In this document: positions 3,149 to 42,323 of the stretch, piece after piece
Layout of the letters: every line of letters starts with the position of its first letter
Position numbering within the stretch: position 1 is the first letter of the stretch
NCBI GenBank assembly: GCA_025927655.1
Contig: JAICKY010000006.1
Coordinates: 1 to 43,035, forward strand
Direction: 5' to 3'
From: Candidatus Saccharimonadota bacterium
GTDB lineage: Bacteria > Patescibacteriota > Saccharimonadia > Saccharimonadales > UBA4665
Length of the DNA: 43,035 nucleotides
Made by a program: the position numbers and the translations under genes
The notes under the pieces: generated by a model
Database searches by the model: none
What the model was told of the DNA's origin: nothing
Seen by the model: only the letters and a program-made list of their open reading frames with translations

Positions 3149-5185
3149 TTAATTGAGGTTCGTGACAGTACGCAAGCGTGCCACACGCGTGCTTAATTCA
3201 TTATATTGTACCAAACTTTCACCACGTTTCAGAAACTCGGCAGCTGATGCGCGAGCCTCTGCAATCAGCTTCACATCGGTGAGTTTGGCGACGCGCAGAT
3301 CTAGCGCGCCATGCTGCATCTGGCCATAAATAGCTCCGGGACCTCGCAGTTCCAAATCCAGTTCGGCCAGTTTAAAGCCGTCCTGGCTGCTTTCGAGCGC
3401 CCTTAGACGCCGTGACGGCGCCGAAGAATCGCCCATCATTAGATAGCAGTAAGCCTTAGCCTGGCCGCGGCCAACCCGGCCGCGCAGCTGATGCAACTGC
3501 GCCAGCCCAAAGCGCTCCGCTGATTGAATCATCATCACGCTGGCATTCGGCACATCCACCCCCACTTCGATCACTGTTGTAGAAACTAGTACATCAAGCT
3601 CGTGCGTCACAAACCGCTGCATAACGGCGTTTTTCTCGTCGGCCTTCATTTTTCCGTGCAGCAAACCCACGCGGTACTGCTTGAATTCCTTTTTTTGGAA
3701 CTGTTCGTACGTCTTCTCGGCCGAGTGCGCATTCACCGTTTCAGATTCAGCAATAAGCGGGCAGACCACGAACATCTGCCTGCCGTCGTCTAATTCTTTG
3801 CGGATATCCGCATACGCCGGTTCAACCGAGTTTGGCGACACGATTTCGGTGCGAATTGGCTGACGCCCGGCAGGTTTTTGGGCCAGCACCGATATATCCA
3901 GCTCACCGTACAGAGTCAGCGCCAGCGAGCGCGGGATCGGCGTAGCCGTCAAACTCAGCAAATGCGGCATATGCCCCGCCTTTTTCATAAGTTCCTTGCG
4001 CTGTTCCACGCCAAATCGGTGCTGCTCGTCTATTATAACCAGCCCCAGCTCGTGCATATCGACTTTGTCTTGAATAAGCGCCTGCGTGCCCACGATAAAC
4101 CGGGCGCGGCCGGTGGCAATTGCCTGATGAGCCTTCTTTTTTTGTGCGCTGGTCAGCGCCCCGACTAATAGTGCCAGCTTAGATTCCATGCCAAGCGGCT
4201 GTAGCAGCTTGTAAATGGTTTCGGCATGTTGCCGTGCCAGCAGTTCGGTCGGTGCCATAAAGGCCACCTGGCACCCGTGCCGTAGCGCCATCAGAGCCGC
4301 CATAGTAGCTACCACCGTCTTACCCGATCCCACATCGCCTTCAACTAACCGGTTCATCGGGTGGTCGGACTGCATGTCCTGATAAATCTGCCAAACCGCC
4401 TTCCTTTGCGCATCGGTGAGCGTGAACGGCAGATGACCCACGAAGTCTTTCGCCAGTTGCCCGTCGAATGGAATCACTAATGATTCATCAGCCGCTAGCT
4501 CTTGTTTGTTCATGAGCGCAGCCAGGCTCAGTTCAAACACTTCTTCGAATCCCAAGCGCCGCCGGGCTTCAGCCAGCTGCACGCCGTCGATTGGAAAATG
4601 CATCGCCAGCACCGCTTCGGCGCGGCTCATCAGCTTTTGCTCCCGCACCAGCCACCCGGGCAGTGTCTCTGGCAGCGTCCGGGTTAAACTCCGGCAGTTC
4701 CCTACCACCTTGCGGATCTGTTTGCTGGTGAGGCCCTTGGTCTCACGGTACACGGGTACAATCCGCGCCGTATTCACGGTAAGATCACTCACTAGTTCCG
4801 CGCTAGGGCTGGTCATTTGCATACGCTGATGGCTGAGTTCAAAGAGGCCCGAAAAATAATACGCCGCACCCACTTTCAATCCATTTGCCCGATAGGGCTG
4901 ATTGAACCAGACCAAGCGAATGCTGCCCGTTTCATCGCTGGCTACGGCTTCGGTTATGTGCATCCCGCGCCGCACATAGCGCCCTGTTGCCTGTTTTACG
5001 ACTGCCTTCACCGTCACCGGGCCGGGCTGCATGTCACGGATGGATACCACTTCGGAATAATCTTCGTATCGCCGCGGCAGGTAGTCAACCAGATCGGCCA
5101 CCGTTTTCACACCCAAAACCGCCAGCTTTTTTGCCAGTTCCTCCCCCACTCCTTTTACAGCCGTCACCGGACTATGCAACTCCAT
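3149..5185 (-). CDS. recG: ATP-dependent DNA helicase RecG
   Basis: Full-length 678 aa; wedge domain start VTAVKGVGEELAKKLA, Walker A GDVGSGKTVVA, DEQHRFGV, GRVGRGQAKAYC. Confidence 0.97.
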   Translation of the reverse strand: MELHSPVTAVKGVGEELAKKLAVLGVKTVADLVDYLPRRYEDYSEVVSIRDMQPGPVTVKAVVKQATGRYVRRGMHITEAVASDETGSIRLVWFNQPYRANGLKVGAAYYFSGLFELSHQRMQMTSPSAELVSDLTVNTARIVPVYRETKGLTSKQIRKVVGNCRSLTRTLPETLPGWLVREQKLMSRAEAVLAMHFPIDGVQLAEARRRLGFEEVFELSLAALMNKQELAADESLVIPFDGQLAKDFVGHLPFTLTDAQRKAVWQIYQDMQSDHPMNRLVEGDVGSGKTVVATMAALMALRHGCQVAFMAPTELLARQHAETIYKLLQPLGMESKLALLVGALTSAQKKKAHQAIATGRARFIVGTQALIQDKVDMHELGLVIIDEQHRFGVEQRKELMKKAGHMPHLLSLTATPIPRSLALTLYGELDISVLAQKPAGRQPIRTEIVSPNSVEPAYADIRKELDDGRQMFVVCPLIAESETVNAHSAEKTYEQFQKKEFKQYRVGLLHGKMKADEKNAVMQRFVTHELDVLVSTTVIEVGVDVPNASVMMIQSAERFGLAQLHQLRGRVGRGQAKAYCYLMMGDSSAPSRRLRALESSQDGFKLAELDLELRGPGAIYGQMQHGALDLRVAKLTDVKLIAEARASAAEFLKRGESLVQYNELSTRVARLRTVTNLN

Positions 5186-5245
5186 AATTCCAGTATACCG
5201 TCTATGCCCCGCTTCAGCCGCGTCCGTCTGAATATTCGAGTTGTG

Positions 5246-5962
5246 TTAGTAACTGCGGTTTCGAGCGTTTTGACGGGATGTGGCTGCCAAGGAGTCATCG
5301 ATGGTCTTTAAATCTACCGCTGTTTTTCGGTACTGTAAGGCTAGCATTATAAGGCTATCTGCCAATTGCGGGTTATTGGGCAGCAGCGGGCCGTGCAAAT
5401 AGGTACCGATGGCATTGCGCGTACGAGCACCCTCAGTCTGATCTTCGCCGTTGTTGCCATTGCCGCGAGTAACCCTGCCGAGCGGCGCTTGGTCATGCAG
5501 TAACGTCGTACGGCCGCTATGATTTTCAAATCCGTAGAGTGTGCCAAAATCTGTTGTTTCTACGGCCGTGTTACCGATAAGCCGTTTAGGGCCGCCAATC
5601 GTGTCGGCATCAAAAATCCCAATGCCCTTAATTTCCTTGCCGTCATGGGTCACAAATCTGTTGCCAAATAATTGGTACGTACCACAAACCATCAGCATTG
5701 GCACATCAGCGGCAACCAGTTTATGCAACCAATTGCCGATGCGCAAGATATCTTTCTGGATATCAGCCTGGGCGGAGTCCTGCCCGCCGCCGCCGAGCAC
5801 AACATCGACGTCTTTCGGCAGCTTGTCGCCAACATTATAATAATGCACCACCGGTTCCAGGCCATGCCACTCGGTCCGGCGTGTTAATGTCAGCAGGTTG
5901 CCGCGGTCGCCATACGTGTTCATTTCGTTCGGATAGATATGCAGTATGTGGATCTTGGTCAT
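5246..5962 (-). CDS. gatD: Lipid II isoglutaminyl synthase, glutamine amidotransferase subunit GatD
   Basis: IHILHIYPNEMNTYGDRGN, GGGGQDSAQADIQKD, nucleophile region MVCGTYQLFG, GFENHSGRT; adjacent to and overlapping murT. Confidence 0.92.
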   Translation of the reverse strand: MTKIHILHIYPNEMNTYGDRGNLLTLTRRTEWHGLEPVVHYYNVGDKLPKDVDVVLGGGGQDSAQADIQKDILRIGNWLHKLVAADVPMLMVCGTYQLFGNRFVTHDGKEIKGIGIFDADTIGGPKRLIGNTAVETTDFGTLYGFENHSGRTTLLHDQAPLGRVTRGNGNNGEDQTEGARTRNAIGTYLHGPLLPNNPQLADSLIMLALQYRKTAVDLKTIDDSLAATSRQNARNRSY

Positions 5963-7233
5963 AGCACCTTCCCTGCCTTTCGCTCAAGCAGCGCGTGTAA
6001 ACGCAGCATGGCCGTGTAGCTGGCAAACACCACCTTTTCACCTGGCAGCCTACAGAAGGCTTGCAGGGCCTTTTCGACATCTGGTTCTATAGAGCCAACC
6101 GGAACGTTGTCGTACTGAAGCCGCAGTGCCATGTCCACCGCCCGGCTGCCACTAGTATAGGCAACGTCCGTTCCTTGCAAACTGGTAAAATCAATATCCC
6201 ATAGCCATGACATGTCGCGGCTGTCTGCCAGATTGTCGTTAATAACAATCATAGTTGCAGTATACGGTCGTACATACGATGCTAAGCCCTGCCGGAAACT
6301 TGCCGGGTTCTTTACTAAGTTCAGCTGTAGTTCAGAACCGTTTTTAAGCATGAACTTCTGGCCACGGCCAAAGGCAGGTTTTACGCCGGCCAGCTGCTTT
6401 AGTAATTTCGCCGGTGCGACATGCGGCAACAGTTGCCGTACCAGGGCTAACGCGCCAGCGGCATTCTGCAGGTTGTGTTGTCCCGTAACTAACAGCTTGG
6501 TTTTAAACCGTTGGGTGCCTATTTGGTAGGTGGCTTCATCGTCTTTAAAGTTCAGCAGTTCGATAGCTACCTGCATTTTGGCAGCATTTGGTGCGGGCGG
6601 CGCATCGCTCACCGACACAATTTCGTCATCACGCGGGAAAAATTTGAGCAGGTCTGGCGCCACGCCAAAGTACGTCACAGGCACATCGCCGCCATCTGCA
6701 ATTGCACTCAGGCGCTTGTCATCGGCATTGACCACTATTTGCTCCGTAGCGGACAGCATCGTATCACCAATAAGTTTTGCAACGGTGTCGACCTCTCCAA
6801 AGCGGTCCAGCTGGTCACGGCTGGCATTTAATGCGAGCACGTATTTTGGTCGGATAACATCGGTAAATTGCCGGGCGTAGGCTTCGTCCAACTCGAACAC
6901 CGCACTATCGAATGGCAGATGGCCGGTTTTGGTTGCCTGCTGGCTGACCGATGAAATAATGCCGCGTGTCAGGTTGCTGCCGGTTGCATTGGTAAGTACG
7001 CGCTTGCCATTGGCCCGCAGCAGCTCAACCACCATCTTGGTTGTAGTGGTTTTGCCGTTGGTACCGGTGATGATAACGACACCTTCTGGCAACTTGCGAA
7101 GCATCACGCTCAGATAGCCGGGAACCAGTGTTTCGACGACCAGGCCAGGCATAGATTGTCCGCTGCTTCTACCGCGCAGTTTTACCGCTTGCGCGACTGA
7201 TTTGCCTAGAGCCGTTCCAATTATTCGCCGCAC
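5959..7233 (-). CDS. murT: Lipid II isoglutaminyl synthase, Mur ligase-like subunit MurT
   Basis: ITGTNGKTTTTKM, NASRDQLDRFGE, INDNLADSRDMSWLWDIDF; coupled to gatD; GTG start. Confidence 0.92.
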   Translation of the reverse strand: MRRIIGTALGKSVAQAVKLRGRSSGQSMPGLVVETLVPGYLSVMLRKLPEGVVIITGTNGKTTTTKMVVELLRANGKRVLTNATGSNLTRGIISSVSQQATKTGHLPFDSAVFELDEAYARQFTDVIRPKYVLALNASRDQLDRFGEVDTVAKLIGDTMLSATEQIVVNADDKRLSAIADGGDVPVTYFGVAPDLLKFFPRDDEIVSVSDAPPAPNAAKMQVAIELLNFKDDEATYQIGTQRFKTKLLVTGQHNLQNAAGALALVRQLLPHVAPAKLLKQLAGVKPAFGRGQKFMLKNGSELQLNLVKNPASFRQGLASYVRPYTATMIVINDNLADSRDMSWLWDIDFTSLQGTDVAYTSGSRAVDMALRLQYDNVPVGSIEPDVEKALQAFCRLPGEKVVFASYTAMLRLHALLERKAGKVL

Positions 7234-7239
7234 GCGTAT

Positions 7240-8490
7240 CTAATCCTGTAGTTCGACTAAGGCCGAATCTTTGAACGCTTTGCCGCGGCGCAGCAGCAAA
7301 CGGCCATTTTGGAAATCTGCTGGTTCAAAGTTTTCACGGGCGGCTTTTTGGCCGTTAATACTAATGCCGTTTTCTTTCAGCAGACGGCGGGCCTCGCTAT
7401 TGGATGCTGCGAGGCTGCTCGATACCAGCGTGTCGATCAGCGGCGCGGTGGCAGTGGCTGCAACATTTGGGATTTCCTGACGGAGCGCATCTAGTACGTC
7501 GCCAGCATCCCCAATGTTCAGACGGCCGGTCAAGCAGTCTGTCACCCGCTTTGCTATATTGGTCGCTTCCTGCCCGTGGACCAGCGCCGTAACCGACTCG
7601 GCGAGTTTCTGCTGCGCGACTCTTTGGCTGGGGTTCTCGTGGTGATGCCTCATAACATCATCAACTTCTTCCTTGGACAGCAACGTGTAGATCTTAATGT
7701 AGTCCTCCACACCCGCGTCGTCACAGGTAATCCAGAACTGGTAGAACTGCGTGGGGGTGGTTTTGGCAGGATCGAGCCAGATGGCGCCTGCTTCGGACTT
7801 GCCAAACTTCACACCTGTTGTTTTATTTACGGCCAGTGGTCCGGTCCATATGTTTGCTTCACTGCCAGTAACACGCCGGATGAGTTCCACGCCGGCAATA
7901 CTATTACCCCATTGGTCAGCGCCTGCCACCTGCAAGGTGGCGCCCTTTTCACGGTGCAGATGCAAAAAGTCGTAGCCCTGGATCAACGAGTAGCTGAATT
8001 CTGCATATGATATCCCGGCACCATCTTCGCCAAGACGGCTCTGGACAAATTCGCGCCCCAGCATTTGGCGCATTGGCACATGCTTGCCCACATCACGCAG
8101 GAAATCCAGGTAGCCCATGCCTTTGAACCAGTCATAGTTATCGACGATCTCAAAGTCTTTGCCGGCAAACACCTGGCGGTATTGGGCAGCAATGGCGTCT
8201 TTGTTATGCTGGATTTCTGCCAGGGACTTGAGATCGCGTTCCTGAGCCTTGCCGTCGGGGTCACCGATCATGCCGGTAGCCCCACCGACCAGCAGAATAG
8301 CTTTGTGGCCGTGGTCTATAAAATGCCGCACCATCATGGCCATGGCAAAGTTGCCAACAGTCATACTATCGGCGCTTGGGTCTACCCCCCAATAAAACGT
8401 TACGGGATCGCCATCGAGCGCAGTTATGTCTTTGTAGGTCGTTTGGTTGACGAAACCTCGCCAAGTTAGTTCTTCAGAAAGTGTCATCAT
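7240..8490 (-). CDS. tyrS: Tyrosine--tRNA ligase
   Basis: YWGVDPSADSMTVGNF, GGATGMIGDPDGK, VAGADQWGNS, KFGKSEAGAIWLD, C-terminal S4-like domain. Confidence 0.97.
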   Translation of the reverse strand: MMTLSEELTWRGFVNQTTYKDITALDGDPVTFYWGVDPSADSMTVGNFAMAMMVRHFIDHGHKAILLVGGATGMIGDPDGKAQERDLKSLAEIQHNKDAIAAQYRQVFAGKDFEIVDNYDWFKGMGYLDFLRDVGKHVPMRQMLGREFVQSRLGEDGAGISYAEFSYSLIQGYDFLHLHREKGATLQVAGADQWGNSIAGVELIRRVTGSEANIWTGPLAVNKTTGVKFGKSEAGAIWLDPAKTTPTQFYQFWITCDDAGVEDYIKIYTLLSKEEVDDVMRHHHENPSQRVAQQKLAESVTALVHGQEATNIAKRVTDCLTGRLNIGDAGDVLDALRQEIPNVAATATAPLIDTLVSSSLAASNSEARRLLKENGISINGQKAARENFEPADFQNGRLLLRRGKAFKDSALVELQD

Positions 8491-8650
8491 GGAGTAGTAT
8501 ACCGTTTCTCATGCCGTTATATAAATAGCTGCTACAAAAAGAGTACCCTGATAGGAGCCTACTGATAGATATACCTTTGTATTGTCCCGATAAAGCTGCC
8601 TAAAGACTGGAGGATTGACAGCACAATAGTGCACTTGTTTTTCTAAAACT

Positions 8651-8659
8651 TGCTATAAT
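8651..8659 (+). promoter_or_regulatory. Extended -10 promoter of the PBP gene
   Basis: TGCTATAAT about 40 nt before the ATG at 8701. It overlaps the TTG at 8659, arguing against that start. Confidence 0.65.
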
Positions 8660-8700
8660 TGAATTGTATAAACGTGAGTTCAGAGAGACCAAAAATAAGT

Positions 8701-11787: not shown

Positions 11788-11810
11788 GTCCCAAAATATT
11801 TAGTCTTAAC

Positions 11811-13178: not shown

Positions 13179-13192
13179 ATTGCTAAAAACTC

Positions 13193-14164: not shown

Positions 14165-14222
14165 TGCCTGCTCCAAGTGTAGCACCTCCATGACGCTACA
14201 CTCGAATCTTGTAGGCCCCTAC

Positions 14223-16709: not shown

Positions 16710-16757
16710 AATTTGTCCCCTCTCGTCGCGAACGTTTTAGATAGTTTCGCTCCTTCC

Positions 16758-16796: not shown

Positions 16797-16875
16797 TTTT
16801 ACACATCCTGGCCGCGTTCGTCGCTTACTGAACGCCTTTTTATGGGTAGCACGACGCATTGCAATGGCATGCATA

Positions 16876-18083: not shown

Positions 18084-18141
18084 GGTTTTTCCTTTCTCTT
18101 ATTTCTCCAAATTGTAAGGGGCATTTACTGACTCTTTCACG

Positions 18142-18205: not shown

Positions 18206-18315
18206 ATAACCAGAACATGCCCGTTGGCTTTCCAGGATAAGCCTACAGGATAGCCATACCGTAAGCCTACAGTTTTTTAGAAGCAAGTCATCTCCCCATG
18301 CTATGCTAGATATAT

Positions 18316-20883
18316 ATGGGAAAATCAGTAGCTCGACTATACACACAGTTTCAACCAAAGCAGTACGATGTCACGTTTGATATCGACGAAGATGCGATGT
18401 ATTTCAAAGGTATTGCCGTCATCACCGGCAAAAAAGTCGGCCGGCCAAGCCAGCGGATCACCCTGCACCAACACGAGCTGAAAATTACCAGCGCCAAAAT
18501 AACTAAGCACGACAAAAAGGGCGATCAAGAATTATCTGTTACGCGTATCAACCACCACGCTAGTTTCAACGAAGTACGCTTGCACACCGAACAGATGGTA
18601 TATCCCGGAGAATACACGCTGGAACTGCGCTTCGAAGCACCGCTGACCGTTGGCATGACCGGCATTTACCCGTGCCTTTTCAAAGACGATGGCACCGAAA
18701 AAAAGCTCATCGCCACCCAGTTCGAAAGCCACCACGCCCGCGAAGCCTTTCCCTGCATAGACGAGCCTGAGGCGAAAGCTGTCTTTAACCTGACGCTGGT
18801 AACACGCCCCGGCATCACCGCCCTAGCTAACACACCGGTACAAAAACAGAGCACAGTTGATGGAAAAATGGTTACCACGTTTGAGCCCACACCCAAAATG
18901 AGCAGCTATCTGCTGGCGTTCGTAACTGGTGACCTGCACCGCAAATCGGCCAAAACTGCGCGCGGCACTGATGTAAACATATGGGCGACCGTTGCCCAGC
19001 CGGCTGAATCGCTCGATTATCCACTAGACGTCGCAAAACGCGTCATAGAATTTTTCGAAGATTATTTCGGTGTAAACTACCCCCTTGCCAAGTGCGACCA
19101 CATTGCGCTGCCCGATTTTTCAAGCGGTGCCATGGAAAACTGGGGGCTTATAACCTACCGGGAGCGCCTGCTGCTGGCCTATCCCGGCGAAACCGCCCAG
19201 AGCACCTTTGAAACCATCGTTATGGTAATTGCGCACGAAGTCAGCCACCAATGGTTCGGCAACCTGGTAACTATGCGCTGGTGGGACGACCTCTGGCTCA
19301 ATGAAAGCTTTGCCGAAATGATGGGGTACCAGGCAATGAACAGCTTGTTCCCTGAATGGCACTCACTAGACAGCTTTATAGCTGCCGAGGGCCTGTCGGC
19401 ACTCCGCCGCGATGCCGTAGCCGGCGTACAAGCGGTAAAGACCGCCGTACATCACCCCGACGAAATCAGCTCGCTCTTCGACCCGTCGATTGTCTACGCC
19501 AAGGGTGCCCGGCTGATGTACATGCTCAAAAACTATATCGGCGATGATATGTTTAGAGCCGGCCTCAAAAACTATTTCGAAATACACGCCTACGGCAACA
19601 CCGAAGGCAGCGATCTGTGGGCTGCACTCAGCGAAGCAAGCGGCATGGACATTGCGGCTTTCATGAATCCATGGCTTACCCGCAGTGGGTTCCCGCTGGT
19701 CACCATTACCCAGGAAGGACATGAAGTTACACTAAAACAAGAACAATTTCTGGACGACCCCAAAAAGGCCGACCCGGAACGTATCTGGCCCGTACCGCTC
19801 TTTACGAATGTACCCGACCAGCCCAAGATGTTCCAGGAAAAGACTCGCCAGCTTCAGGTTGCCGATGACACCACAATGCTTCTCGGTACCGAAGGCCGCG
19901 GCTACTACATGGTCCGCTACGGCACCAACTCGCACAAGCAGGCGGTACTGGACATGGTACGCCAAAAACAGCTGAGCGAAGCCGACCGTTTGCTGCTCCT
20001 GAACGGCGGTAGTATGCAGGCCAAGGCTGGCTACGAACCCTACGCCAACATCCTCACCATGCTCGACGCCTACGCCCAGGAAGTTAGTGAGCCAGTGTGG
20101 GATATCATGGCGATGATACTCGGTGAAAGCCGCCGGTTTATCGACCTGGACCGGTCGCTCGAAGATGCAATCAAACCATTCGCCTCAAAACTGGTCGCTG
20201 CTCAGGTGGCGCGCTTAGGCTGGGACGAGATCGAAAACGAGCCATCGGCCGACCAGAAACTGCGGGCGTTAGTATTAGGCCTGAGTGCATACGCTGAAGA
20301 CCCAGCAACGGTCACCAAAGCGCAGGAGCTTTTTAACGCATACAAAAACACCGGCGTAAGCCTATCCGCCGAACTACGCGGCCTGGTTTTTGTGGTGCCA
20401 ATTAAAAATGGCGATGCCGAAGCATTCGATTTCCTGCTGAACCTACACGACACTACCCAAAATGGCGACCTGAAGGGCGATGCCTGCGATGCGCTCACTG
20501 CCACTCGCGATCCAAAACGCGCCGCGCAGCTTCTGGAGCGTCTAAAAGACGCCCGGCTCGTAAAACCGCAGGATGTTGACCGCTGGCTGGTGTTCTTGCT
20601 CCGCAACCGCTATACCCGTGACACCGCATGGGATTGGATGGTCGCCAACTGGCAGTGGCTGCAGGACACATTCAGCCACGACAAATCATACGACTACCTG
20701 CCACGCTACGCCGCTAGTTGCGTAAACACCCGCGCGTATCAGCGGAAATTCCTGGATCTGTTCGAAAGCAAACAAGACCAGCTGGCACTCAAACGAAATA
20801 TCCAGCTCGGCATGGAAGAGATCGAAACCCGCGTCAGCTGGCTGGAGCGTGATCTTGCTTCTGTGCAGGGATTCTTTAAGTAA
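18316..20883 (+). CDS. M1 family aminopeptidase (PepN-like)
   Basis: GAMENWGLITYRE and HEVSHQWFGNLVTMRWWDDLWLNESFAEMMGY metal site (HExxH-x18-E). Confidence 0.95.
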   Translation: MGKSVARLYTQFQPKQYDVTFDIDEDAMYFKGIAVITGKKVGRPSQRITLHQHELKITSAKITKHDKKGDQELSVTRINHHASFNEVRLHTEQMVYPGEYTLELRFEAPLTVGMTGIYPCLFKDDGTEKKLIATQFESHHAREAFPCIDEPEAKAVFNLTLVTRPGITALANTPVQKQSTVDGKMVTTFEPTPKMSSYLLAFVTGDLHRKSAKTARGTDVNIWATVAQPAESLDYPLDVAKRVIEFFEDYFGVNYPLAKCDHIALPDFSSGAMENWGLITYRERLLLAYPGETAQSTFETIVMVIAHEVSHQWFGNLVTMRWWDDLWLNESFAEMMGYQAMNSLFPEWHSLDSFIAAEGLSALRRDAVAGVQAVKTAVHHPDEISSLFDPSIVYAKGARLMYMLKNYIGDDMFRAGLKNYFEIHAYGNTEGSDLWAALSEASGMDIAAFMNPWLTRSGFPLVTITQEGHEVTLKQEQFLDDPKKADPERIWPVPLFTNVPDQPKMFQEKTRQLQVADDTTMLLGTEGRGYYMVRYGTNSHKQAVLDMVRQKQLSEADRLLLLNGGSMQAKAGYEPYANILTMLDAYAQEVSEPVWDIMAMILGESRRFIDLDRSLEDAIKPFASKLVAAQVARLGWDEIENEPSADQKLRALVLGLSAYAEDPATVTKAQELFNAYKNTGVSLSAELRGLVFVVPIKNGDAEAFDFLLNLHDTTQNGDLKGDACDALTATRDPKRAAQLLERLKDARLVKPQDVDRWLVFLLRNRYTRDTAWDWMVANWQWLQDTFSHDKSYDYLPRYAASCVNTRAYQRKFLDLFESKQDQLALKRNIQLGMEEIETRVSWLERDLASVQGFFK

Positions 20884-22604: not shown

Positions 22605-23132
22605 TTAGGCTTTGTTTTCTTCGTGCTTAGCCTGTACAGCAGCAGCTTTAGCTTCCAGCTCGGCTTCTTCGGCGGCTTTTGCGCTAGCTTCGGCCTCGGC
22701 AGCCTTGGCGGTCTCTTCGGCCAGTTTGGCAGCTTCGGCTTCGGCGTGCTTGTCTACAACACCGTTAACAGCCTGGCGGTCGAAATCCAGACCTTGCAGA
22801 CGAGCGCTCTTACCGGTCAGCTTGCGCATGTAGCTGAGGTAGTTGCGGCGAACTTTGCTTCGCTTGGTAACTTCGACCTTTAGTACTAATGGGCTGTGTA
22901 GTAAAAAGCTTTTTTCTACACCGACACCGCTGGCGATGCGACGAACCGTAATGCGGCTGGTGTGGCTGTCTTTGCGGTCGCAGCGTATAACGAGACCCTG
23001 GAAGATCTGTACGCGCTCCTTGCTGCCTTCTTTAATTTTTTGGTGCACTTTAACCGTGTCGCCAGAGCGCACGTCGACAACAGCACCTTTTTTGAATGTC
23101 TGGTTGAGTTCCTTGATGTATTCCATAGTCAA
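22605..23132 (-). CDS. rplS: 50S ribosomal protein L19 with Ala/Glu-rich C-terminal extension
   Basis: FKKGAVVDVRSGDTVKVHQKIKEGSKERVQIFQGLVI, GVGVEKSFLLHSPLV, KRSKVRRNYLSYMR. Start is either TTG 23132 or ATG 23126. Confidence 0.95.
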   Translation of the reverse strand: MTMEYIKELNQTFKKGAVVDVRSGDTVKVHQKIKEGSKERVQIFQGLVIRCDRKDSHTSRITVRRIASGVGVEKSFLLHSPLVLKVEVTKRSKVRRNYLSYMRKLTGKSARLQGLDFDRQAVNGVVDKHAEAEAAKLAEETAKAAEAEASAKAAEEAELEAKAAAVQAKHEENKA

Positions 23133-23162
23133 GTGGTAATTGTACGCTATTTCACCCCTGAT

Positions 23163-23380: not shown

Positions 23381-24988
23381 CTAGCCAACAACGCGGTAGA
23401 CTTCTTCGAGCGTTGTTTGACCGGCGCAGACCAGCAGAATTCCATCTTGCAGCATAGTACGCATACCGCTCATAATTGCCGCTGTTTCGATAGATTGGCT
23501 GGAAAGTACGGTCGTGTGCTCTTCCAGCAACCGGCGGATTTCACCGGTCATGCGGAACTGCTCACGGATAGCTATCTGGCCTTTGAACCCATAAGGATTT
23601 TCAGCCGATGTACCTGGTTTGTACAGTTGCAGGTCCTGAACATCCGGCCGTTCAACGCCATCGGGCAGCGTCTGGATAACTTGTGTAATTTTGGCTATTT
23701 CCGCCTCGGTAGGCTGGTACGGCTGTTTCGTAGTGTCGTCGAGTTTGCGAATGAGCCGCTGGGCCATGACTAAGCGGATAGCCGATACGAACAAGGGGTT
23801 TTGACCGATTATGTCCATCAGCCGCGTCAACGCCTCGGCCGCGGAACCGGCGTGATAGGTGCTGAGCACCAGGTGACCGGTAAGCGAAGCTTGCAGTGCA
23901 GTCTTGGCGGTGTCGTTATCGCGGATCTCACCAACCATGACGATGTCAGGATCGAGACGAAGTGTTGCCCGCAACTTGTCCGCGAATTTCCCCTCGTTAG
24001 AGCTTTCCAGGTTACTGACCGGTATCTGGGTAATGCCCGTAAACTGATACTCCACCGGATCTTCGATGGTGATGATCTTGCGTTCTTCGGTGTTTAACGA
24101 GTTCAAGATGGAATACAACGTGGTGGTCTTGCCCGAACCCGTCGGTCCGACAACCATTACCAGGCCGCTTGGTTTAGCGATAATGTCATCCAGCACGGAG
24201 CGCTGTTCCGGCGTCAGGCCTAAACGGTCCAGGTTATATTTGCTTTCGTCCATGTTAAACAAGCGCATAACCACGTCCATGCCGTTTACCGTTGGCACCG
24301 TTTCCAGCCGCACGTTCACGTCTACCGGCGTACCATCCGCCATCGTAGCCTTCTGACTGATGTGACCCTGCTGAGCTTCAGCGGTCGATGTAGATACGTT
24401 GCCCGCGCTGGCAATTGCGCTCACAAGTACCCGGTATTTATCTGGTTCCAGCCGGGCAATGGGGTGCAGCACCCCATCTATACGAAACCGAATCCGCACA
24501 TCATGCGCCTGTGTTTCGATGTGAATATCGCTGGCGTTCAAGCGGTGTGCCTGACTAACCAGGTAGGCCAGCATGTCATCAGCACGAACCTGTTTCAGCG
24601 TGGCAGAAACTTGAGCCACCAGATCTGCCGTGCCAGCAGTATTGACGCTAATATCCTGGTATACCACTTGCTTTGGCGGGTCGTACAGGCGCATATACTC
24701 CCGGTAGCCAGCGTCCGAAATAAGCCTAAAGGCAACACGCTGGTCGGTAAAGCGCTGGGTTAACGAGTTGATTGTCTGCTGGGACGTAGTAGTGGTAATG
24801 CCGAACAGAATATTACTGGTGTCCGCCTGCATAGGAACAACACGCAATTTATACAGTTCGTCATTTTCCATGACATCTTTATAAATCTGCTTCGTTGGAA
24901 TTGCAGATGTATCCAGATATTCCACACCTAGTATCTGCGCACGACGCTGTGTAGCAAGCTCTTCGTCGCGGCGAGCATCTTGTGACAT
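23381..24988 (-). CDS. GspE/PulE/PilB family secretion/type IV pilus assembly ATPase
   Basis: Walker A VGPTGSGKTTTLYSIL, EDPVEYQFTGITQ, ASP-box LRLDPDIVMVGEIRD, HLVLSTYHAGSA. ATG 24988 preferred, with TATACT 6 nt upstream. Confidence 0.9.
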   Translation of the reverse strand: MSQDARRDEELATQRRAQILGVEYLDTSAIPTKQIYKDVMENDELYKLRVVPMQADTSNILFGITTTTSQQTINSLTQRFTDQRVAFRLISDAGYREYMRLYDPPKQVVYQDISVNTAGTADLVAQVSATLKQVRADDMLAYLVSQAHRLNASDIHIETQAHDVRIRFRIDGVLHPIARLEPDKYRVLVSAIASAGNVSTSTAEAQQGHISQKATMADGTPVDVNVRLETVPTVNGMDVVMRLFNMDESKYNLDRLGLTPEQRSVLDDIIAKPSGLVMVVGPTGSGKTTTLYSILNSLNTEERKIITIEDPVEYQFTGITQIPVSNLESSNEGKFADKLRATLRLDPDIVMVGEIRDNDTAKTALQASLTGHLVLSTYHAGSAAEALTRLMDIIGQNPLFVSAIRLVMAQRLIRKLDDTTKQPYQPTEAEIAKITQVIQTLPDGVERPDVQDLQLYKPGTSAENPYGFKGQIAIREQFRMTGEIRRLLEEHTTVLSSQSIETAAIMSGMRTMLQDGILLVCAGQTTLEEVYRVVG

Positions 24989-25072
24989 AGCTTCAGTATA
25001 CAGCTTCGTGCCGAGCCCGCCAATAAGCACAAGTATTACCCTTGCGGCGGTTGGCACTGGTACACTTACAGC

Positions 25073-25573
25073 ATGAACCGCGACATCGTCGTTATCGCTC
25101 ACGATATCCGCAGCACGCACAATGTTGGATCGCTGCTGCGCACCGGCGAGGGCTTAGGTGTAACACAGGTGTATTTCACTGGTTACACACCGTATCCATC
25201 ACTCCCCGCAGACGACCCGCGGCTGCCGCATATCTCGGCAAAGTTAACCCGGCAGATTCAAAAAACCGCCCTGGGGGCCGAACTGCTCCTGCCATGGACA
25301 CACCTGGATGATGTAACAGTCTGCCTGGCACAACTCCATGCAGCTGGATATCAGGTGATCGCGTTAGAGCAGTCGGCACACAGCGTGGCACTACCGGACT
25401 TTCGGCCGCCAGAGAAAGTCGCGTTACTGCTCGGCCGGGAGGTTGAAGGCATTGCGCCGGAAATACTGGCGCAATGCGACCAGATTGTTGAAATTCCTAT
25501 GTTTGGCCGCAAAGAATCGTTCAATGTCGTGCAGGCCGCCGCCATAGCACTGTATCAGCTGCGGTTTGCGTGA
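25073..25573 (+). CDS. SpoU/TrmH-family RNA 2'-O-methyltransferase
   Basis: DIRSTHNVGSLLRTGEGLGV, LLLGREVEGI, IPMFGRKESFNVVQAAAIALYQ. Confidence 0.92.
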   Translation: MNRDIVVIAHDIRSTHNVGSLLRTGEGLGVTQVYFTGYTPYPSLPADDPRLPHISAKLTRQIQKTALGAELLLPWTHLDDVTVCLAQLHAAGYQVIALEQSAHSVALPDFRPPEKVALLLGREVEGIAPEILAQCDQIVEIPMFGRKESFNVVQAAAIALYQLRFA

Positions 25574-30226: not shown

Positions 30227-30371
30227 AAACTGTTACCTCTCATGTCTCATAAAATTATACTATTTTAGACCAGCATAAGCAGCATATTACGGGGCAGATT
30301 GTGTATTACACATCACGCGCCGTCCTCCCGATAGTCTATAATTGCAATACGATTACTGAGGACTTGCTGAA

Positions 30372-31355
30372 ATGGCAGCGTATGTGACTTTTATTATTGG
30401 TAATGGCCTTGATTTATCCTTAGGACTTAAAACCTCTTACAAGGATTTTTACGAGTACGCTCAGGCGCAGCAGTGGCATCCCCAAAACAGGATTTACACC
30501 CAAATAAAGGAAAACCCGGAGACGTGGTCCGACTTTGAGCTGGCATTAGGCACGTACACCCACTACATCCAAAAGCTGCCGGAAAAGGACCAAGCAAAAG
30601 AGGCGAATGACCTCCACGAGGAGCTGGAAGAAATCCGGCAGGATTTGGCGGCATACCTGCGTTTGCAGGAAGGCTCCGTGGAAAACTTACCTGATAAGTT
30701 CAGTTTCAGCCTTGCCGGCGATGGTTTTTTTGATGAGTTGCGAGTAGGCCAGCGCGAAAGAATACAGAGTTTACTGTCGGCCAGGCCGGTACACATTGAT
30801 TTTATAACACTAAACTACACAAAAACGCTCGAAAAAATCATTTCAGACCGAACACTCACAAACAACAGTTGGGGTTTCAGGTTTAGGGCGCCGCTCCACA
30901 TCCACGGCAACCTTTCACAGGACCTAACGCTCGGGCTGAGCGAGGAATCGCAGCTTTTTTCGGGCATGTCTACTCAGGAAAAAGACGACCTCATCAAACC
31001 AACCTTGATAGCCTCCATGTACGATGGAAGGCTTGCCGTACTACAGCAGGCTATCAACCGCAGTTCGTTGCTGGTATTTTTTGGAACGTCCATCGGCGAA
31101 ACAGATAAATATTTGTGGACTTACGCTATTGACTGGCTGTTGGGCCACCCGGCCCGCCACATCATAATTCACAAGTACGATAGGAACTATACGGAAAGCA
31201 CTGAACTCTCATCAAGAAAACAGAAGCAGTTTAGAAACAAAGTACAGAACAAACTCTTGGACCACGTACAGCTGGACGAAAGCCTAAAGGAATCACTAAA
31301 AGAGCGGATTCTGGTGATTCACAATACCAAAAGGTTGTTCGTACCTAAGGATTAG
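30372..31355 (+). CDS. AbiH-family abortive-infection protein
   Basis: IIGNGLDLSLGLKTSYKDFYEY at the N-terminus, FITLNYTKTLEKI, PLHIHGNL, FFGTSIGETDKYLW: AbiH-like motif order. Confidence 0.75.
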   Translation: MAAYVTFIIGNGLDLSLGLKTSYKDFYEYAQAQQWHPQNRIYTQIKENPETWSDFELALGTYTHYIQKLPEKDQAKEANDLHEELEEIRQDLAAYLRLQEGSVENLPDKFSFSLAGDGFFDELRVGQRERIQSLLSARPVHIDFITLNYTKTLEKIISDRTLTNNSWGFRFRAPLHIHGNLSQDLTLGLSEESQLFSGMSTQEKDDLIKPTLIASMYDGRLAVLQQAINRSSLLVFFGTSIGETDKYLWTYAIDWLLGHPARHIIIHKYDRNYTESTELSSRKQKQFRNKVQNKLLDHVQLDESLKESLKERILVIHNTKRLFVPKD

Positions 31356-31428
31356 GCGCGAGAAGACAGGCATCTACCAAACTAGGGCTAGCCAGGAAAG
31401 TACCTGGCTCTGGCATTGGTACTCTTAT

Positions 31429-31848: not shown

Positions 31849-31850
31849 AC

Positions 31851-32108
31851 CTAGTCCTTCTTCCCTTTCGCGTTAATAGTAGCCATAAATTTGAGTAACA
31901 TGCGCAGCATGCCCGCAGCGCCAGCATTACGGCGCAGCGTTTCACCCAATTCCTCCGCGCTATCTACCAGCTGCTCGCCTTTGGTGGCTATCTGACGCAG
32001 GCTCTTCAGCAGCCGCAGCACCAAAGAGACGGCAATAATAGAGAGGATAAGAAATATACCGAGCAGGGAGCCGAGGACAATGACGAGGACATCAAATGCT
32101 GTATTCAT
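31851..32108 (-). CDS. Small single-TM membrane protein upstream of YtxH
   Basis: MNTAFDVLVIVLGSLLGIFLILSIIAVSLVLRLL. ATG 32108 sits 6 nt after extended -10 TGCTATATT. Confidence 0.65.
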   Translation of the reverse strand: MNTAFDVLVIVLGSLLGIFLILSIIAVSLVLRLLKSLRQIATKGEQLVDSAEELGETLRRNAGAAGMLRMLLKFMATINAKGKKD

Positions 32109-32168
32109 ATGATAAATATAGCACAATCGCATCAGAGCGCAGCAGTCAACTTTCTAACACTGCCTAGT

Positions 32169-33625: not shown

Positions 33626-33635
33626 TACGACGCTC

Positions 33636-35491: not shown

Positions 35492-36921
35492 GTTAGTAGC
35501 TCCTCGGCTGCACGTGCCACCGATAGTAATTCCCTATCAGCGCGCTGCGGAGCTATCAGCTGCAAGCCAACCGGCAGGCCTTCGGCCGTACCACAGGGGA
35601 TACTTATGGCGGGCACACCGGCCATGTTCACTGCCACCGTCATGATGTCGGTCAGGTACATTTGAAGCGGGTCGTTGGCATTTTCGCCAATTTTGAATGC
35701 GGTCATTGGTGCGGTAGGGCCAACCAGAAAATCAACCGATTCAAAAGCCTTCGCAAAATCGTTGATAATTTTCGTGCGGACAGTTTGCGCCTTTTTGTAG
35801 TACGCGTCGTAATAGCCGCTGCTTAGAACATAGGTGCCCATCATGATGCGCCGCTTGGCTTCTTTGCCGAAGCCAATCTCACGGGTTTTCGTGTAGCTTT
35901 CGTCCAGGTTTTTGGCGTCTGCATAGCTAAAACCATACCGTTGGCCGTCGTACCGGCTCAGGTTGCTGCTGACCTCTGCCGGACAAATGATGTAATAGAC
36001 AGCCAGCGCCAGCGGCAGTGACGGCAGACTAAGTTCCTGAACCTCGGCCCCAGCCTGTTTGATCTGCTCTATTGCTGCTTCAACGCACCCACGCACACCG
36101 GGCTGCATGCCATCGCCCATATATTCTTTTATGACGCCGATTTTTTTACCGGCCAAGCTACTGGCAGAGACAACGTAGCCCTGATCATCCTGGTCGATAG
36201 TCGTGCTGTCCAGCTCGTCTTTTCCGGCTGTTACATCAACGATTAGCGCTGCGTCTTCCACCGAAGACGCGAGCGGGCCGATACTGTCCAAGCTGCTCCC
36301 CATTGCTACTACGCCGCTGCGGCTTACCAACCCATAGGTTGGCTTGTAGCCAACGGTGCCCGTAAAGCTGGCTGGCAAACGAATGGAGCCGCCGGTGTCG
36401 CTGCCTAGCGCGAACGGGGCAAGGTTCAAGGCCACGCTAGCAGCTGATCCGCCAGAGGAACCACCAGGCACGCGCGTTTCATCGTGCGGGTTTTTGGTGG
36501 TGAAAAAGTCTGAGTTTTCGGTACTGGACCCGTGTGCAAAGGCGTCCAGGTTGGCCTTGGCAACACAAATGGCGTCTTCGGCCTCCAGCTTTTCGATAAC
36601 GGTTGACTGGTACGGCGCAGCAAAGCCTTTTAGGATATTGCTGGCGGCAGTGGTGTCAGCACCAAATACCAGGAAGTTATCTTTGGCGATGAATGGCACG
36701 CCCGCCAGGCGGCCAGCGTTTTCACCGGCAGCAATTTTGGCATCAATAGCCTTTGCCCGCTCACGCGCCCGGTCGGCCGTGGTAGCAACAATAGCTTTGA
36801 ATGATTCATTCCCGGCAATCAGGCCGAGTGATTTTTCTACCAGGTCGACAGCCTTCAGTTCGCCGCTCTGCACCTTGGCGGCAATAGTATCAATAGGTTC
36901 CCAAACGGCCATACTACCCAA
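35488..36921 (-). CDS. gatA: Asp/Glu-tRNA(Asn/Gln) amidotransferase subunit A
   Basis: Amidase signature: IAKDNFLVFG, PGGSSGGSAASVALNLAPFALGSDTGGSIRLPASFTGTVGYKPTYG. Confidence 0.97.
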   Translation of the reverse strand: MGSMAVWEPIDTIAAKVQSGELKAVDLVEKSLGLIAGNESFKAIVATTADRARERAKAIDAKIAAGENAGRLAGVPFIAKDNFLVFGADTTAASNILKGFAAPYQSTVIEKLEAEDAICVAKANLDAFAHGSSTENSDFFTTKNPHDETRVPGGSSGGSAASVALNLAPFALGSDTGGSIRLPASFTGTVGYKPTYGLVSRSGVVAMGSSLDSIGPLASSVEDAALIVDVTAGKDELDSTTIDQDDQGYVVSASSLAGKKIGVIKEYMGDGMQPGVRGCVEAAIEQIKQAGAEVQELSLPSLPLALAVYYIICPAEVSSNLSRYDGQRYGFSYADAKNLDESYTKTREIGFGKEAKRRIMMGTYVLSSGYYDAYYKKAQTVRTKIINDFAKAFESVDFLVGPTAPMTAFKIGENANDPLQMYLTDIMTVAVNMAGVPAISIPCGTAEGLPVGLQLIAPQRADRELLSVARAAEELLT

Positions 36922-37207
36922 TCATCCTTTTAACTTTGAGTTGGTTGTCCTGAGTTTTTGGCACGTTTTTGAGCAAGTCCAGCGGTGCATAGCCATAGTC
37001 TTTTATACTATCTTCACGCATAACGTTCGTGAGACCGGTAACCTGGTTGGTTGACACCAGCCCGCTAACGTCAACAGCTGAAAGCTGTTCGACGTACTGC
37101 AAAATAGCACTCAGCTCTTCGCTGAATTCGGTAACTTCATCATCGCTCAAAGAAATCCGAGCTAACTGAGCAAGCTTTAAGACATCATCCCGTGTGAGTT
37201 TTGCCAT
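36914..37207 (-). CDS. gatC: Asp/Glu-tRNA(Asn/Gln) amidotransferase subunit C
   Basis: LTRDDVLKLAQLARISLSDDEVTEFSEELSAILQYVEQL; overlaps gatA start. Confidence 0.95.
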   Translation of the reverse strand: MAKLTRDDVLKLAQLARISLSDDEVTEFSEELSAILQYVEQLSAVDVSGLVSTNQVTGLTNVMREDSIKDYGYAPLDLLKNVPKTQDNQLKVKRMIG

Positions 37208-37401
37208 TTCTACTAGTATACAAATATAGGGGTATGTTTTAAAGATCTTTCTCTAAAATGCGCAGCGAAACAATTGTACCAGCAGATGTTGCACCCCAAA
37301 TTAGCTTTGTTACTTATGAGCCGGGGTTCGGATCCGCAGGCGGTCCGACAGTAGTTATCTGATCCTGTTCGGCAACGAGTGTGGTCATTACCCCTGCCGC
37401 A

Positions 37402-37491
37402 CTACGCCCGTTGGGATAACACGTCTGAGCCGCCAGTTTCGCCGCCTACGCCGTACACACTACTGGCACCAATGGTAAAAATCTGTTTCAT
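37402..37491 (-). pseudogene. N-terminal remnant of an SGNH/GDSL-type hydrolase
   Basis: Minus strand ATG...TAG encodes MKQIFTIGASSVYGVGGETGGSDVLSQRA*, like the block I GxSS start of SGNH hydrolases, then stop; following sequence is non-coding or frameshifted. Confidence 0.4.
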
Positions 37492-37500
37492 AGTTATGGC

Positions 37501-39468
37501 TTACTGGCCGGCTTTGATTTGAGCAATGAGGTCTCGGAGCTCGGCAGCTTGTTCGAACTGCAGGTTAGCAGCCGCTAAGTCCATCTGTGCACTCAAGTCT
37601 TTCAGCAAGCTGCCATATTCGTCTTTTGGAATCTTCTTCAGGTCCAGCTTAGCGCGCTTGGCTTCGTCGCCCACTGCCTCTACGCGCATACTTTCCTCTA
37701 CCGCCCGGTTGATACCTGTCGGAGTTATGCCGTGCTCGGTGTTGTAGTCTTCCTGGATTTTGCGGCGGCGGATTGTTTCGTCCATAGCGAATTTCATACT
37801 GTCGGTGATACGGTCGGCATACATAACCACGTGGCCCTCCACATGGCGAGCGGCACGACCGATGGTCTGAATAAGCGCCTGCTGGCTGCGCAAGAAGCCC
37901 TCTTTGTCGGCATCCAGTATCGCCACCAGACTGACTTCCGGCAAGTCCAAGCCTTCGCGCAGCAGGTTAATGCCGATCAGTACATCATACACACCCAGGC
38001 GCAAATCACGCAAAATGTCAGTACGGTCGAGCGTATCGACATCACTGTGCAGGTACGCTACTTTCATATTCAGCTCTTTCAGATATTCAGTCAGGTCCTC
38101 CGACATACGTTTGGTTAATGTGGTAACCAGCACGCGCTGGCGCTTTTCGACCGTCGCGCGGATTTCAGCAATTAAATCATCTATCTGGCCTTCTATAGGT
38201 CGGACCTCTATGGGTGGGTCGAGCAAGCCAGTCGGGCGGATAACCATTTGGGCCGGTTCAGGGCTGCGGCTCAGCTCATATTGGGCTGGCGTAGCGCTCA
38301 CATATACGACTTGGTTTACATGGCGCTCGAATTCTGTAAAGGTCAACGGGCGGTTATCGAGTGCGCTAGGCAGGCGGAACCCATGTTCGACCAGTACTTC
38401 TTTGCGTGCCCGGTCGCCGTTATACATGCCGCGCACCTGCGGGATGCTCATGTGACTCTCATCTACCAGCAGCAGATAGTCATCCGGGAAATAGTCCAGC
38501 AGCGTAGCTGGCTGCTCACCCTCTTCGCGGTTCGTCAGGTAACGGCTGTAGTTTTCGATGCCCTTCACGAAACCGGTTTGCTCGAGCATCTCCAGATCAA
38601 ACTTCGTCCGTTGTTCCAATCGCTGCGCTTCCACTAGCTTATTTTGCTTTTTGAATAGCTTTAGCCGGGCCTGTAGCTCCTGGTCTATATAGCCCAGCGC
38701 CACTTTGAGCTTGTCTTGCGGCGTTACATAGTGGCTGCCCGGGAAGATTTTATATTCGTCCAACTCCGCCAGAATTTCGCCGGTAAGCGGATCGATTTTA
38801 GTAATGCGGTCAACTTCATCACCGAAGAATTCCATGCGGTATGCCAATTCCTCGCCGGCCGGGAATACATCCACCACATCTCCGCGCACGCGGAAGGTGC
38901 TGCGGTGGAAATCGATGTCGTTGCGCTGATACTGGATATCGGTGAGCTGACGCAAAAACTTGTCGCGTACCCGGCGTTCGCCGCGTTTGACCTCTATCGA
39001 CAGGCCATCGTAATCTTCCACGCTGCCGATGCCGTATATGCAGCTCACACTGGCCACAATCAGCACGTCTTTGCGGCTGAGCAAGCTGTCGGTAGCGGCG
39101 TGGCGCAGCCGATCGATCTCTTCGTTGATGGCGCTGTCTTTTTCTATGTAGGTGTCACTGCGGGCAATATATGCTTCCGGCTGGTAGTAGTCGAAATAGC
39201 TGACAAAATAGTGAACGGCATTATTCGGGAAAAAATTCTTAAACTCGGCATACAGCTGAGCAGCAAGCGTTTTGTTGTGGCAGAGCACCAGCGTTGGCTT
39301 TTGGGTGTTCATGACCAGGTTGGACATGGCAAAGGTTTTGCCGGAACCAGTCACGCCCAGCAAGGTTTGCTCCTTTAGCCCTTTGTTCAGGCCGTCGGTT
39401 AGCTGTGCAATAGCAGCCGGCTGGTCTCCCGTCGGCTGATAGTTGCTCCGCAGTTCAAAATTACTCAC
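37501..39468 (-). CDS. uvrB: UvrABC system protein B
   Basis: [58 protein letters not shown]-terminal UVR motif. GTG start at 39468 preferred. Confidence 0.97.
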
Positions 39469-39472
39469 GTAT

Positions 39473-40135
39473 CTATTGTAGCGTAGAAGTAGCCTGTATG
39501 TGGCTGACTGCAACAGAAAATGCCGCTTTGATGTTGGAATCCTTCACGACACCGATAGTATCTCCGCAGCCATCTTGTGGTTGCTCATAGTAAAAATAGT
39601 AGTTCCCGATTTTGACAGCTGTTGGATTCTCCGAGCGCAGGGTTTTGCCGGATAGCGGATCGGCGTCTGCATATGTAAACCTCCTGATTGCACCCATACT
39701 CACATCATTAGCCCGACATGCAGTACTAGACAACGAGTTTAGTGACAAATAGACACTGTCAGGCGCACCTGCTTTTACAGCATACGTCGCATCTGAAACT
39801 GTAGAAGTAAGGGGGATCTCTACGCCCCACTCTTTGATCGTCAGGTATTTTAAAGCCTCTGTAAAGGTTTTGCCGCTTTGGGTCACACACTGCGCAGGAT
39901 ATGTTTGTAGCAGCTTACTGCCGCCTGCTTTCTTACACGAATCAAAATCGGTTATCTGTGGTAACTTTGGCATGTCGCCCGAGACTTTATTGGCGCTCTT
40001 TAGGCTGGCATCCGCCAATTGTGCGCTATGGTACGCAAACCAAACCGTAAAACTTACTGCCGCCGCAACCACTACAGCCAGTACTGTTGCCATCGTCGTA
40101 ATCCGGGCACGTTTTTTGTGCGTTTTCACTTCCAT
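39473..40135 (-). CDS. Membrane-anchored extracytoplasmic protein with Cys-containing domain
   Basis: N-terminal TM ([22 protein letters not shown]), [30 protein letters not shown] motif, two further Cys. Confidence 0.55.
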
Positions 40136-40238
40136 CCCTCTTGTTTTAGCTTACTTACGATTATAGGGAGACCCGGCAAAAGCACAAGAGTTTTATGCCA
40201 AACCAGTCAATACACTCATGGTTTGCTATACTACCGGT

Positions 40239-41000
40239 ATGCAACCAAGCGATAGTCCCGCCAACATACCCAAGCGGGAAGTTATACAAAGAGAGCTCAT
40301 AAAAGAAACCTCTGAACGGCTTAGCCGCATCGATGCCGAATTCGCCGACGGATTTGAGTTTATAAACAAATACAACGATACCGTCTCGATCTTCGGTTCA
40401 GCCATGCCCTGGGACGAGCATAACGAGCAATACCAAAAGGCCCGGGATCTTGCGAAGCTGCTGTCCGACGACGGCTACAGTATCGTGACCGGCGGTGGTA
40501 ACGGCATCATGGAAGCAGGTGATCGCGGCGCACAGGAAGCTGGCGGGCACTCGCTGGGGCTCAATATTATGCTCCCGCGCGAACAAGGCCTCAACCCCTA
40601 CACCACCGACTCCATGACCTTCCGGTATTTCTTTACCCGTAAAGTTCTGTTGGCTTATGGTGCCATGGCATACATTTACTTTCCTGGCGGCTTCGGTACG
40701 TTCGACGAGCTGTTTGAAATTCTGACCCTTATCCAAACCAAAAAGATGCCGGCTGCACCGGTTATACTTATGGGCAGTGAATTCTGGACCGGCGTCGACC
40801 TGTTTATCCGAACTTACATGCTGAAAGAGTTCCATACTATTGCCGAGCAAGATCTGGACCTCTACCACATCACAGACGACATCATGGTCGTTAAGGCCCT
40901 AGTGGACGAGCATCGTGACAAAGCAAGTCCACTGGCATCACCAGAGGCGACAGAAGTTACGCCACTTTCACAAGAAGACCTGCTGCTTGGTGAACAATAG
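40239..41000 (+). CDS. LOG-family / TIGR00730-like Rossmann-fold protein
   Basis: VTGGGNGIMEAGDRGAQEAGG, RKVLLAYGAMAYIYFPGGFGTFDELFE (PGGxGTxxE). Start at 40239, after extended -10 TGCTATACT. Confidence 0.9.
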   Translation: MQPSDSPANIPKREVIQRELIKETSERLSRIDAEFADGFEFINKYNDTVSIFGSAMPWDEHNEQYQKARDLAKLLSDDGYSIVTGGGNGIMEAGDRGAQEAGGHSLGLNIMLPREQGLNPYTTDSMTFRYFFTRKVLLAYGAMAYIYFPGGFGTFDELFEILTLIQTKKMPAAPVILMGSEFWTGVDLFIRTYMLKEFHTIAEQDLDLYHITDDIMVVKALVDEHRDKASPLASPEATEVTPLSQEDLLLGEQ

Positions 41001-41016
41001 TTAGGACCGCTAGATA

Positions 41017-42249
41017 TTAATCAAACGCCAGTTCAGGTACCAGTTGCTCATCCAGTTTACCAAGTAGCAATGCTTGTAAGTTTTCCTGGTGCAGGTAGCG
41101 GGCCATAAGTTCACGGCTAAGCGTTGTACGCATGTGGTGCACGATCCGTTGGCCATAATCCAGCCCGTTACAAACGCTGAGTGCTACATCCAGCATATTG
41201 AGCGATACAGTCCGGGTATCTTCTAGCAGCGCCAGCAACTGGTTTCCCTGCCAAAATTCCAACGCAGGCGATAGTTGCGCCAGCATTGTTTCCGCATCAT
41301 GCCAGCTTAGGTCTTCGGGTTGTACGTGTGGTTCAAACACCTGGGGATAATACTGGAAATGCCCACGGCCATAAAACCATTGCACCATTTTCCATGGCAA
41401 TGGTTCGCCCGCTAGCTCCGCAGACGTTATCGGTTCGTGCAACATTGCATCAGCAAAGATTTCCCCGTAGTCTGGCTTGAACTGTTGTAACTTAAGGTAC
41501 GATCCAAGTGACCGCATGTCGTTCACGCTACTGACAGCCAGCAAAAGCGTGGTAATAGCCAGGCCCGAAAGGTCGTGTTCCAAAGGCAGGATTACTACCG
41601 AACCCAGTTCTGGAATGGCTAGGATGTTGTGTTTATGATGGGCGGTGTATTCAGCGGCAATTTCGGGCCAGTGTTTGGCTGTCGGCAGCAGAAAAACAGC
41701 TTTCTTTACTTCGAAATCACGCGGCTTCAACTTTTTGTATGCATCAATGCGCCGCCGCTGCCATTCTGGTGATTCTACAATGTTCACCGCCGCCAGCAGC
41801 TGTGCTACCGGTTCGTGTTTGATCATACTGTCCATGCTGCGGTAGCCGAGCTTCTTCATAGTAGCCTTGGGCTGGAGTTTTTTGAGCATGGCACGCAGCA
41901 CCGATTGTTTGATCACGAACGTCTGTGTGGGCAGCTTTAGCTTTCGCAGATGCGCGCACGCCGCCTCTAGCACTGCTTCCGGAGTTCCATCCGCCCGCAT
42001 ATTCAGCGAGGCGCGCACCTGAATCTCATCCCTTAGCAACCGGGCTTTTAGTGCAGCGTACAGCTCTTCGCCCGTTGTGTCGTGCGGGTCCAGCCCCAAA
42101 TCACGGATTTTGCCGCGTGTTTCGTTCACAATTTCCATCATCAGCCGGATATCAGCACCTGGCAGCCCAGCAGCCTGCTCCAGCCGCTGCAATTGCGCCC
42201 GAAACGCTGGCTCGGCGACCCCCATAAGCTGCGCAAGTACCCTCGACAT
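41017..42249 (-). CDS. Hypothetical protein, 410 aa
   Basis: Long ORF with coding-like composition and -10-like TATATA 5 nt upstream of ATG; no family recognised. Confidence 0.7.
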   Translation of the reverse strand: MSRVLAQLMGVAEPAFRAQLQRLEQAAGLPGADIRLMMEIVNETRGKIRDLGLDPHDTTGEELYAALKARLLRDEIQVRASLNMRADGTPEAVLEAACAHLRKLKLPTQTFVIKQSVLRAMLKKLQPKATMKKLGYRSMDSMIKHEPVAQLLAAVNIVESPEWQRRRIDAYKKLKPRDFEVKKAVFLLPTAKHWPEIAAEYTAHHKHNILAIPELGSVVILPLEHDLSGLAITTLLLAVSSVNDMRSLGSYLKLQQFKPDYGEIFADAMLHEPITSAELAGEPLPWKMVQWFYGRGHFQYYPQVFEPHVQPEDLSWHDAETMLAQLSPALEFWQGNQLLALLEDTRTVSLNMLDVALSVCNGLDYGQRIVHHMRTTLSRELMARYLHQENLQALLLGKLDEQLVPELAFD

Positions 42250-42323
42250 AGTTATATATAGATTACCACAAGCGGCATTCGGTTGGTAGCGTGTGTTTGG
42301 TCACTAGAGAGGGACTACTACAG

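Follow-up and report, generated by a model that had tools for sequence, protein, structure and literature searches.

Is a -10 box placed directly before the start codon a recurrent arrangement in Saccharibacteria, and would the transcripts of such genes be leaderless? The question arises from a stretch of 43,035 nucleotides of a Candidatus Saccharimonadota genome (hereafter the window), in which an earlier note listed eleven genes with a -10-like hexamer 5-8 nt before the start codon. All eleven strings, gaps and coordinates were found to be exact, letter for letter. The window is contig 22 in a 34-contig genome of 871,003 bases (87% complete), and UvrB proteins related to its own at 73-88% identity carry, with few exceptions, the label Candidatus Saccharibacteria or Saccharimonadia. 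Pfam supports the identity of recG, tyrS (class I W/Y synthetase), the M1 peptidase, rplS, the T2SSE-family (pilB-like) ATPase, spoU, gatC, uvrB and LOG, while no Pfam family matched the 410-aa and 85/93-aa genes. Gene-level statistics were confined to the window plus 20 other stretches of this genome (399 kb, 331-338 genes), on which genes were called with a simple codon model; the whole genome entered through pattern counts. The features are collected in Table 1.

Table 1. Candidate -10 boxes and control leaders in the window. Nx is the gap between box and start codon; ortholog fractions refer to the near -10 unless stated otherwise, followed where available by the same count at control spacings.
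Gene	Element and start	Positions	Strand	Evidence
recG	-10 TATACT, N6, ATG 5183-5185	5192..5197	-	21/33 orthologs vs 8 and 6; RecG by Pfam
tyrS	-10 TATACT, N5, ATG 8488-8490; second ATG at N8	8496..8501	-	11/26 orthologs; SD-like leader in 15/26
clpC (control)	SD-type leader gagagggg before ATG 16709	16710..16730	-	leader sequence, ortholog upstreams
nusA (control)	leader with SD aaggaa; TACAAT ~27 nt before start	18084..18123	-	SD-like 4-mer in 9/9 orthologs
M1 aminopeptidase	-10 TATGCT, N8, ATG 18316-18318	18302..18307	+	4/5 orthologs; controls 0
rplS	-10 TACAAT; TTG 23130-23132 at N6 or ATG 23124-23126 at N12	23139..23144	-	8/29 orthologs
pilB-like (T2SSE) ATPase	-10 TATACT, N6, ATG 24986-24988	24995..25000	-	24/29 orthologs vs 9 and 2
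SpoU methylase, divergent from pilB	-10 TACACT, N6, ATG 25073-25075	25061..25066	+	20/24 orthologs vs 6 and 5
85-93 aa gene	-10 TATATT, N6, ATG 32106-32108	32115..32120	-	string present
gatC, first in gatCAB	-10 TATACT, N7, ATG 37205-37207	37215..37220	-	24/26 orthologs vs 5 and 2
uvrB	-10 TACAAT, N6, GTG 39466-39468	39475..39480	-	38/39 orthologs vs 3 and 4
LOG (lysine decarboxylase-like)	-10 TATACT, N6, ATG 40239-40241	40227..40232	+	4/4 orthologs
410-aa gene	probable -10 TAATCT, TGTGG before, N10, ATG 42247-42249	42260..42265	-	ortholog upstreams

Within the window, the hexamer TA[TC][AG][ACT]T ending 5-8 nt 5' of a candidate start was found at 9 of the 34 called genes, against 1-4 genes in slid windows and 1.2 +/- 1.05 in shuffled sequences (maximum 4, n = 300). 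When starts were set by coding score alone, the 399 kb sample presented a sharp peak of -10-like hexamers at a spacer of 6-7 before leading genes. The profile over all candidate ATGs (threshold 3.5) gave 26 and 18 matches at spacers 6 and 7 for leading genes versus a background of 3.7 +/- 1.7, and 2 and 2 versus 0.4 for operon-internal genes. Summed over spacers 5-8, the excess is ~46 among 220 leading genes (21%) compared with 2.5 among 61 operon-internal ones (4%), and spacers 9-12, which are enriched too, add roughly 20. Counts over the entire genome are 63 for TAYAMT-N6-ATG, 17 for the same pair at N20 (binomial p = 1e-7) and 11 for the pattern in reverse. The comparison of leading starts with shuffled and within-operon controls that the earlier note had proposed thus yields the peak it anticipated, near-absent operon-internally, and the recurrence that it described is real and not a product of chance. 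Roughly a fifth or more of the transcript-leading genes in this Saccharibacterium appear to carry a -10 box just 6-7 nt 5' of the start, a gap that would let +1 fall on the start codon, as in a leaderless class. The bulk peak is confined to ATG, with none for GTG, TTG or the non-start codons CTG, ATA and ACG in the same spacer profile, which makes a GTG start like the one of uvrB an exception, though an ortholog-supported one. A free EM mixture (-10, SD or none) was rejected, as shuffled upstream regions gave similar fractions and the spacer peak alone set the real data apart from the shuffles; since its mixing fractions were uninformative, fixed motifs with slid and operon-internal controls were used.

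Conservation was studied by comparing near -10 counts among orthologs with the same count at two control spacings (Table 1). The spacer is exactly N6 in 30 of the 39 uvrB orthologs, whose flanks are unrelated, and ranges from 6 to 11 among those of gatC, while SD-like motifs are scarce (1-3 per gene) across the orthologs of recG, pilB, spoU, gatC and uvrB. Together with the start, the near -10 is kept across the class, independently of its diverging flanks, at uvrB, gatC, pilB, spoU and recG, and not at rplS, tyrS and the 410-aa gene. Two revised starts also find agreement here: the orthologs concur with a GTG start for uvrB, and closer-family pilB orthologs align from the homologue of ATG 24988, while the mechanically called pilB GTG at 25120 would overlap spoU.

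Very probably, then, these are sigma-70-type promoters whose placement puts +1 on the start codon or within a few bases of it, and the mRNAs would be leaderless or nearly so. Such a promoter would consist of a -10 box (TATACT, TACAAT or TATAAT), often with TGn before it and sometimes with a TTGACA-like -35 at 17 bp; the first transcribed base would be the A of ATG or G of GTG, or one a few bases away, and the ribosome, presumably together with initiator tRNA and IF2 as in other bacteria, would initiate on the 5'-terminal AUG or GUG with no Shine-Dalgarno pairing. Where exactly these mRNAs begin and how the ribosome engages them are inferred by analogy with other bacteria. A possible but less likely reading of the whole class accepts the promoters as real and gives the mRNAs ultra-short leaders of 1-5 nt, translated by the same 5'-end-proximal route or through weak non-SD binding. 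Discriminator length usually varies by 1-2 nt, which suits this reading, as do the additional peaks at spacers 9-12 and the spread of the gatC spacers, whereas the main peak at 6-7 and the fixed spacer of uvrB argue against it. Because spacers 9-12 are enriched as well, part of the class may have such leaders, and some sites probably do.

The leaderless reading takes the hexamers for promoter elements, and their surroundings are consistent with this. TGn and -35-like hexamers played no part in site selection; nevertheless, in nine Saccharimonadia genomes pooled, TGn precedes the hexamer at 42 of 129 sites with spacers 5-8 (8 expected), and TTGACA-like hexamers peak 17 bp from the box (18 versus ~5). 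These values indicate that the near boxes belong to real sigma-70-type promoters. Boxes lying 20-45 nt upstream are enriched to a similar degree in TGn and -35 elements but are ~6.5-fold sparser per position (129 sites over 26 positions versus 128 near sites over 4); hence, TGn and -35 elements reveal promoters and not leaderlessness, for which position alone speaks. It is very improbable that the hexamer is instead an A/U-rich S1-type ribosome-binding element of the kind proposed for Bacteroidota, with the true promoter further upstream. Its position near -12 does recall AT-rich upstream biases (PMC5397173), but the match to TAYAMT is exact and in fixed phase, with TGn and a -35-like box at 17 bp, and the signal nearly vanishes inside operons, while a Bacteroidota-type element would be a diffuse, unphased A/U-rich tract at all genes. 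The motif CTTRTGnTAAnCT / CTTATGCTTTATACT recurs upstream of several genes, namely at 42260-42275 of the window and at pilB, LOG and 410-aa loci of relatives, and resembles the Gram-positive TRTGn extended -10.

Chance matches combined with the choice of a fitting start codon are refuted for the set taken together and have almost no probability left, given the peak at coding-only starts, the window and genome counts and the ortholog conservation, although the rplS TTG and the 410-aa TATATA do look like such picks. For rplS, described in the earlier note as leaderless from TTG, the start is doubtful: the near -10 among its 29 orthologs is not above control spacings, and these orthologs start elsewhere, the closest with ATG at N9 and many others with an SD-like leader. 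In mycobacteria, leaderless initiation from TTG or CTG is ineffective (PMC4633059), which makes the ATG at 23126 (N12) at least as likely as TTG. The box assigned to the 410-aa gene, TATATA (42255-42260) at N5, is a poor -10 and is not conserved; in the orthologs a shared CTTRTGnTAAnCT ends 9-10 nt ahead of ATG, which makes TAATCT the probable box. A leaderless tyrS holds here and in several relatives and is not conserved beyond them, many orthologs having a distant box and an SD; in another family this TATACT is found ~35-45 nt upstream and is followed by an SD. This looks like an evolutionary class switch at one promoter. The promoters of the rplS and tyrS orthologs seem to switch between leaderless and SD-led forms via a changed distance from -10 to start. 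For the 93-aa gene, no ortholog was present among the relatives' loci compared.

The leaderless genes would share the genome with an SD class. SD motifs precede operon-internal genes in the sampled stretches, and for gatA, which follows gatC in its operon, 3 of 24 orthologs have a near -10 and SD-like motifs prevail. The SD-like leaders that had been ascribed to clpC and nusA are present in both (Table 1). Most operon-internal genes and some leading ones (clpC, nusA, dnaE) are SD-led by their upstream sequences. Among relatives, the anti-SD core CCTCC is intact at the 16S 3' ends, bS21 occurs in 41 of 41 genomes (36 above the cut-off) and the class Saccharimonadia has S1-like proteins; in the window's own incomplete genome, 16S (RF00177) gave no match and S12 (PF00164) was not found, and the anti-SD evidence comes from the relatives. 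Loss of SD initiation in the lineage is ruled out by these components together with the SD motifs before operon-internal genes, and a dual system follows. The near -10 genes would accordingly lack an SD in a genome that uses it elsewhere, with the anti-SD intact as read in relatives. Position, promoter elements and conservation in relatives together give good support to the two translation-initiation classes that the earlier note had suggested. Beyond the CCTCC core, which is unchanged, the 16S 3' ends vary: those of the window's order and of genomes G094 and G183 end in GGATTACCTCC, those of most other class members in GGATCACCTCC. An AbiH-family (abortive infection) gene at 30372-31355 (+) adjoins dnaE and has no ortholog in the relatives' loci compared.

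Concerning breadth, the gene-level profile recurs unevenly in 8 other Saccharimonadia, being clearest in G230, G189, G109, G067 and G217 and weak in G199 and G094, and six named Saccharibacteria have 28-108 sites versus 6-36 for the reversed pattern. Summed over 145 genomes of Patescibacteria, N6 and N20 matches stand at 7177:4153, and 55 of these genomes reach p<0.001 on their own; outside Patescibacteria, most ratios in the panel are near 1-2. Three Patescibacteria families (f16, f25, f67) present no N6 excess of -10 boxes, and the leaderless signal therefore seems absent or lost there. One genome of 0.9 Mb (G177) holds 91 TAYAMT-N6-ATG sites versus 15 reversed, equal in strength to Saccharibacteria. 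We lean towards a leaderless mode that is major and inherited in all Saccharimonadia and much of Patescibacteria, with uvrB, gatC, pilB and recG fixed class-wide and tyrS and rplS switching with SD solely by their distance from a conserved -10. If this is true, automated start calls in genomes of Saccharimonadia and Patescibacteria would be systematically wrong.

Patescibacteria account for a large part of bacterial diversity, and almost all that is known of them comes from sequence. If leaderless genes are numerous in this group, start-codon and promoter annotation should be adapted, as should the design of expression cassettes for cultivable Saccharibacteria, and a reduced, deep-branching lineage would join the debate on the age of leaderless initiation. 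A literature search for leaderless genes in Saccharibacteria, TM7, CPR or Patescibacteria, whose coverage left out most subscription journals and preprints, found no report, and the available portions of PMC3160421 and PMC12340547 contain no mention of Saccharibacteria or TM7. As leaderless initiation is established in other bacteria, this would be a known mode in an apparently unreported lineage, Saccharibacteria being apparently new for it.

The closest parallels lie in Actinobacteria and Deinococcus-Thermus, for which Zheng et al. (2011, PMC3160421) describe leaderless genes with TANNNT ~10-12 bp before the start, and PMC12340547 a '-10 region adjacent to ORFs' in Deinococcus. The likeness covers a -10 a few bases before the start, a mixture of leaderless and SD classes and no SD at leaderless genes, while the Saccharibacterium differs in its reduced genome, medium GC and more defined box (TATACT/TACAAT/TATAAT). 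In PMC9581028, the GeneMarkS-2 leaderless group is cited as 21.6% of 4,769 bacterial genomes, and there, as here, a promoter-type upstream signal serves start prediction. Mycobacterial leaderless transcripts were shown by RNA-seq and ribosome profiling (PMC4633059), whereas the Saccharibacterial ones are predicted from genomes; the two are alike in a 5'-terminal ATG or GTG start, in coexistence with SD leaders and in conservation between species.
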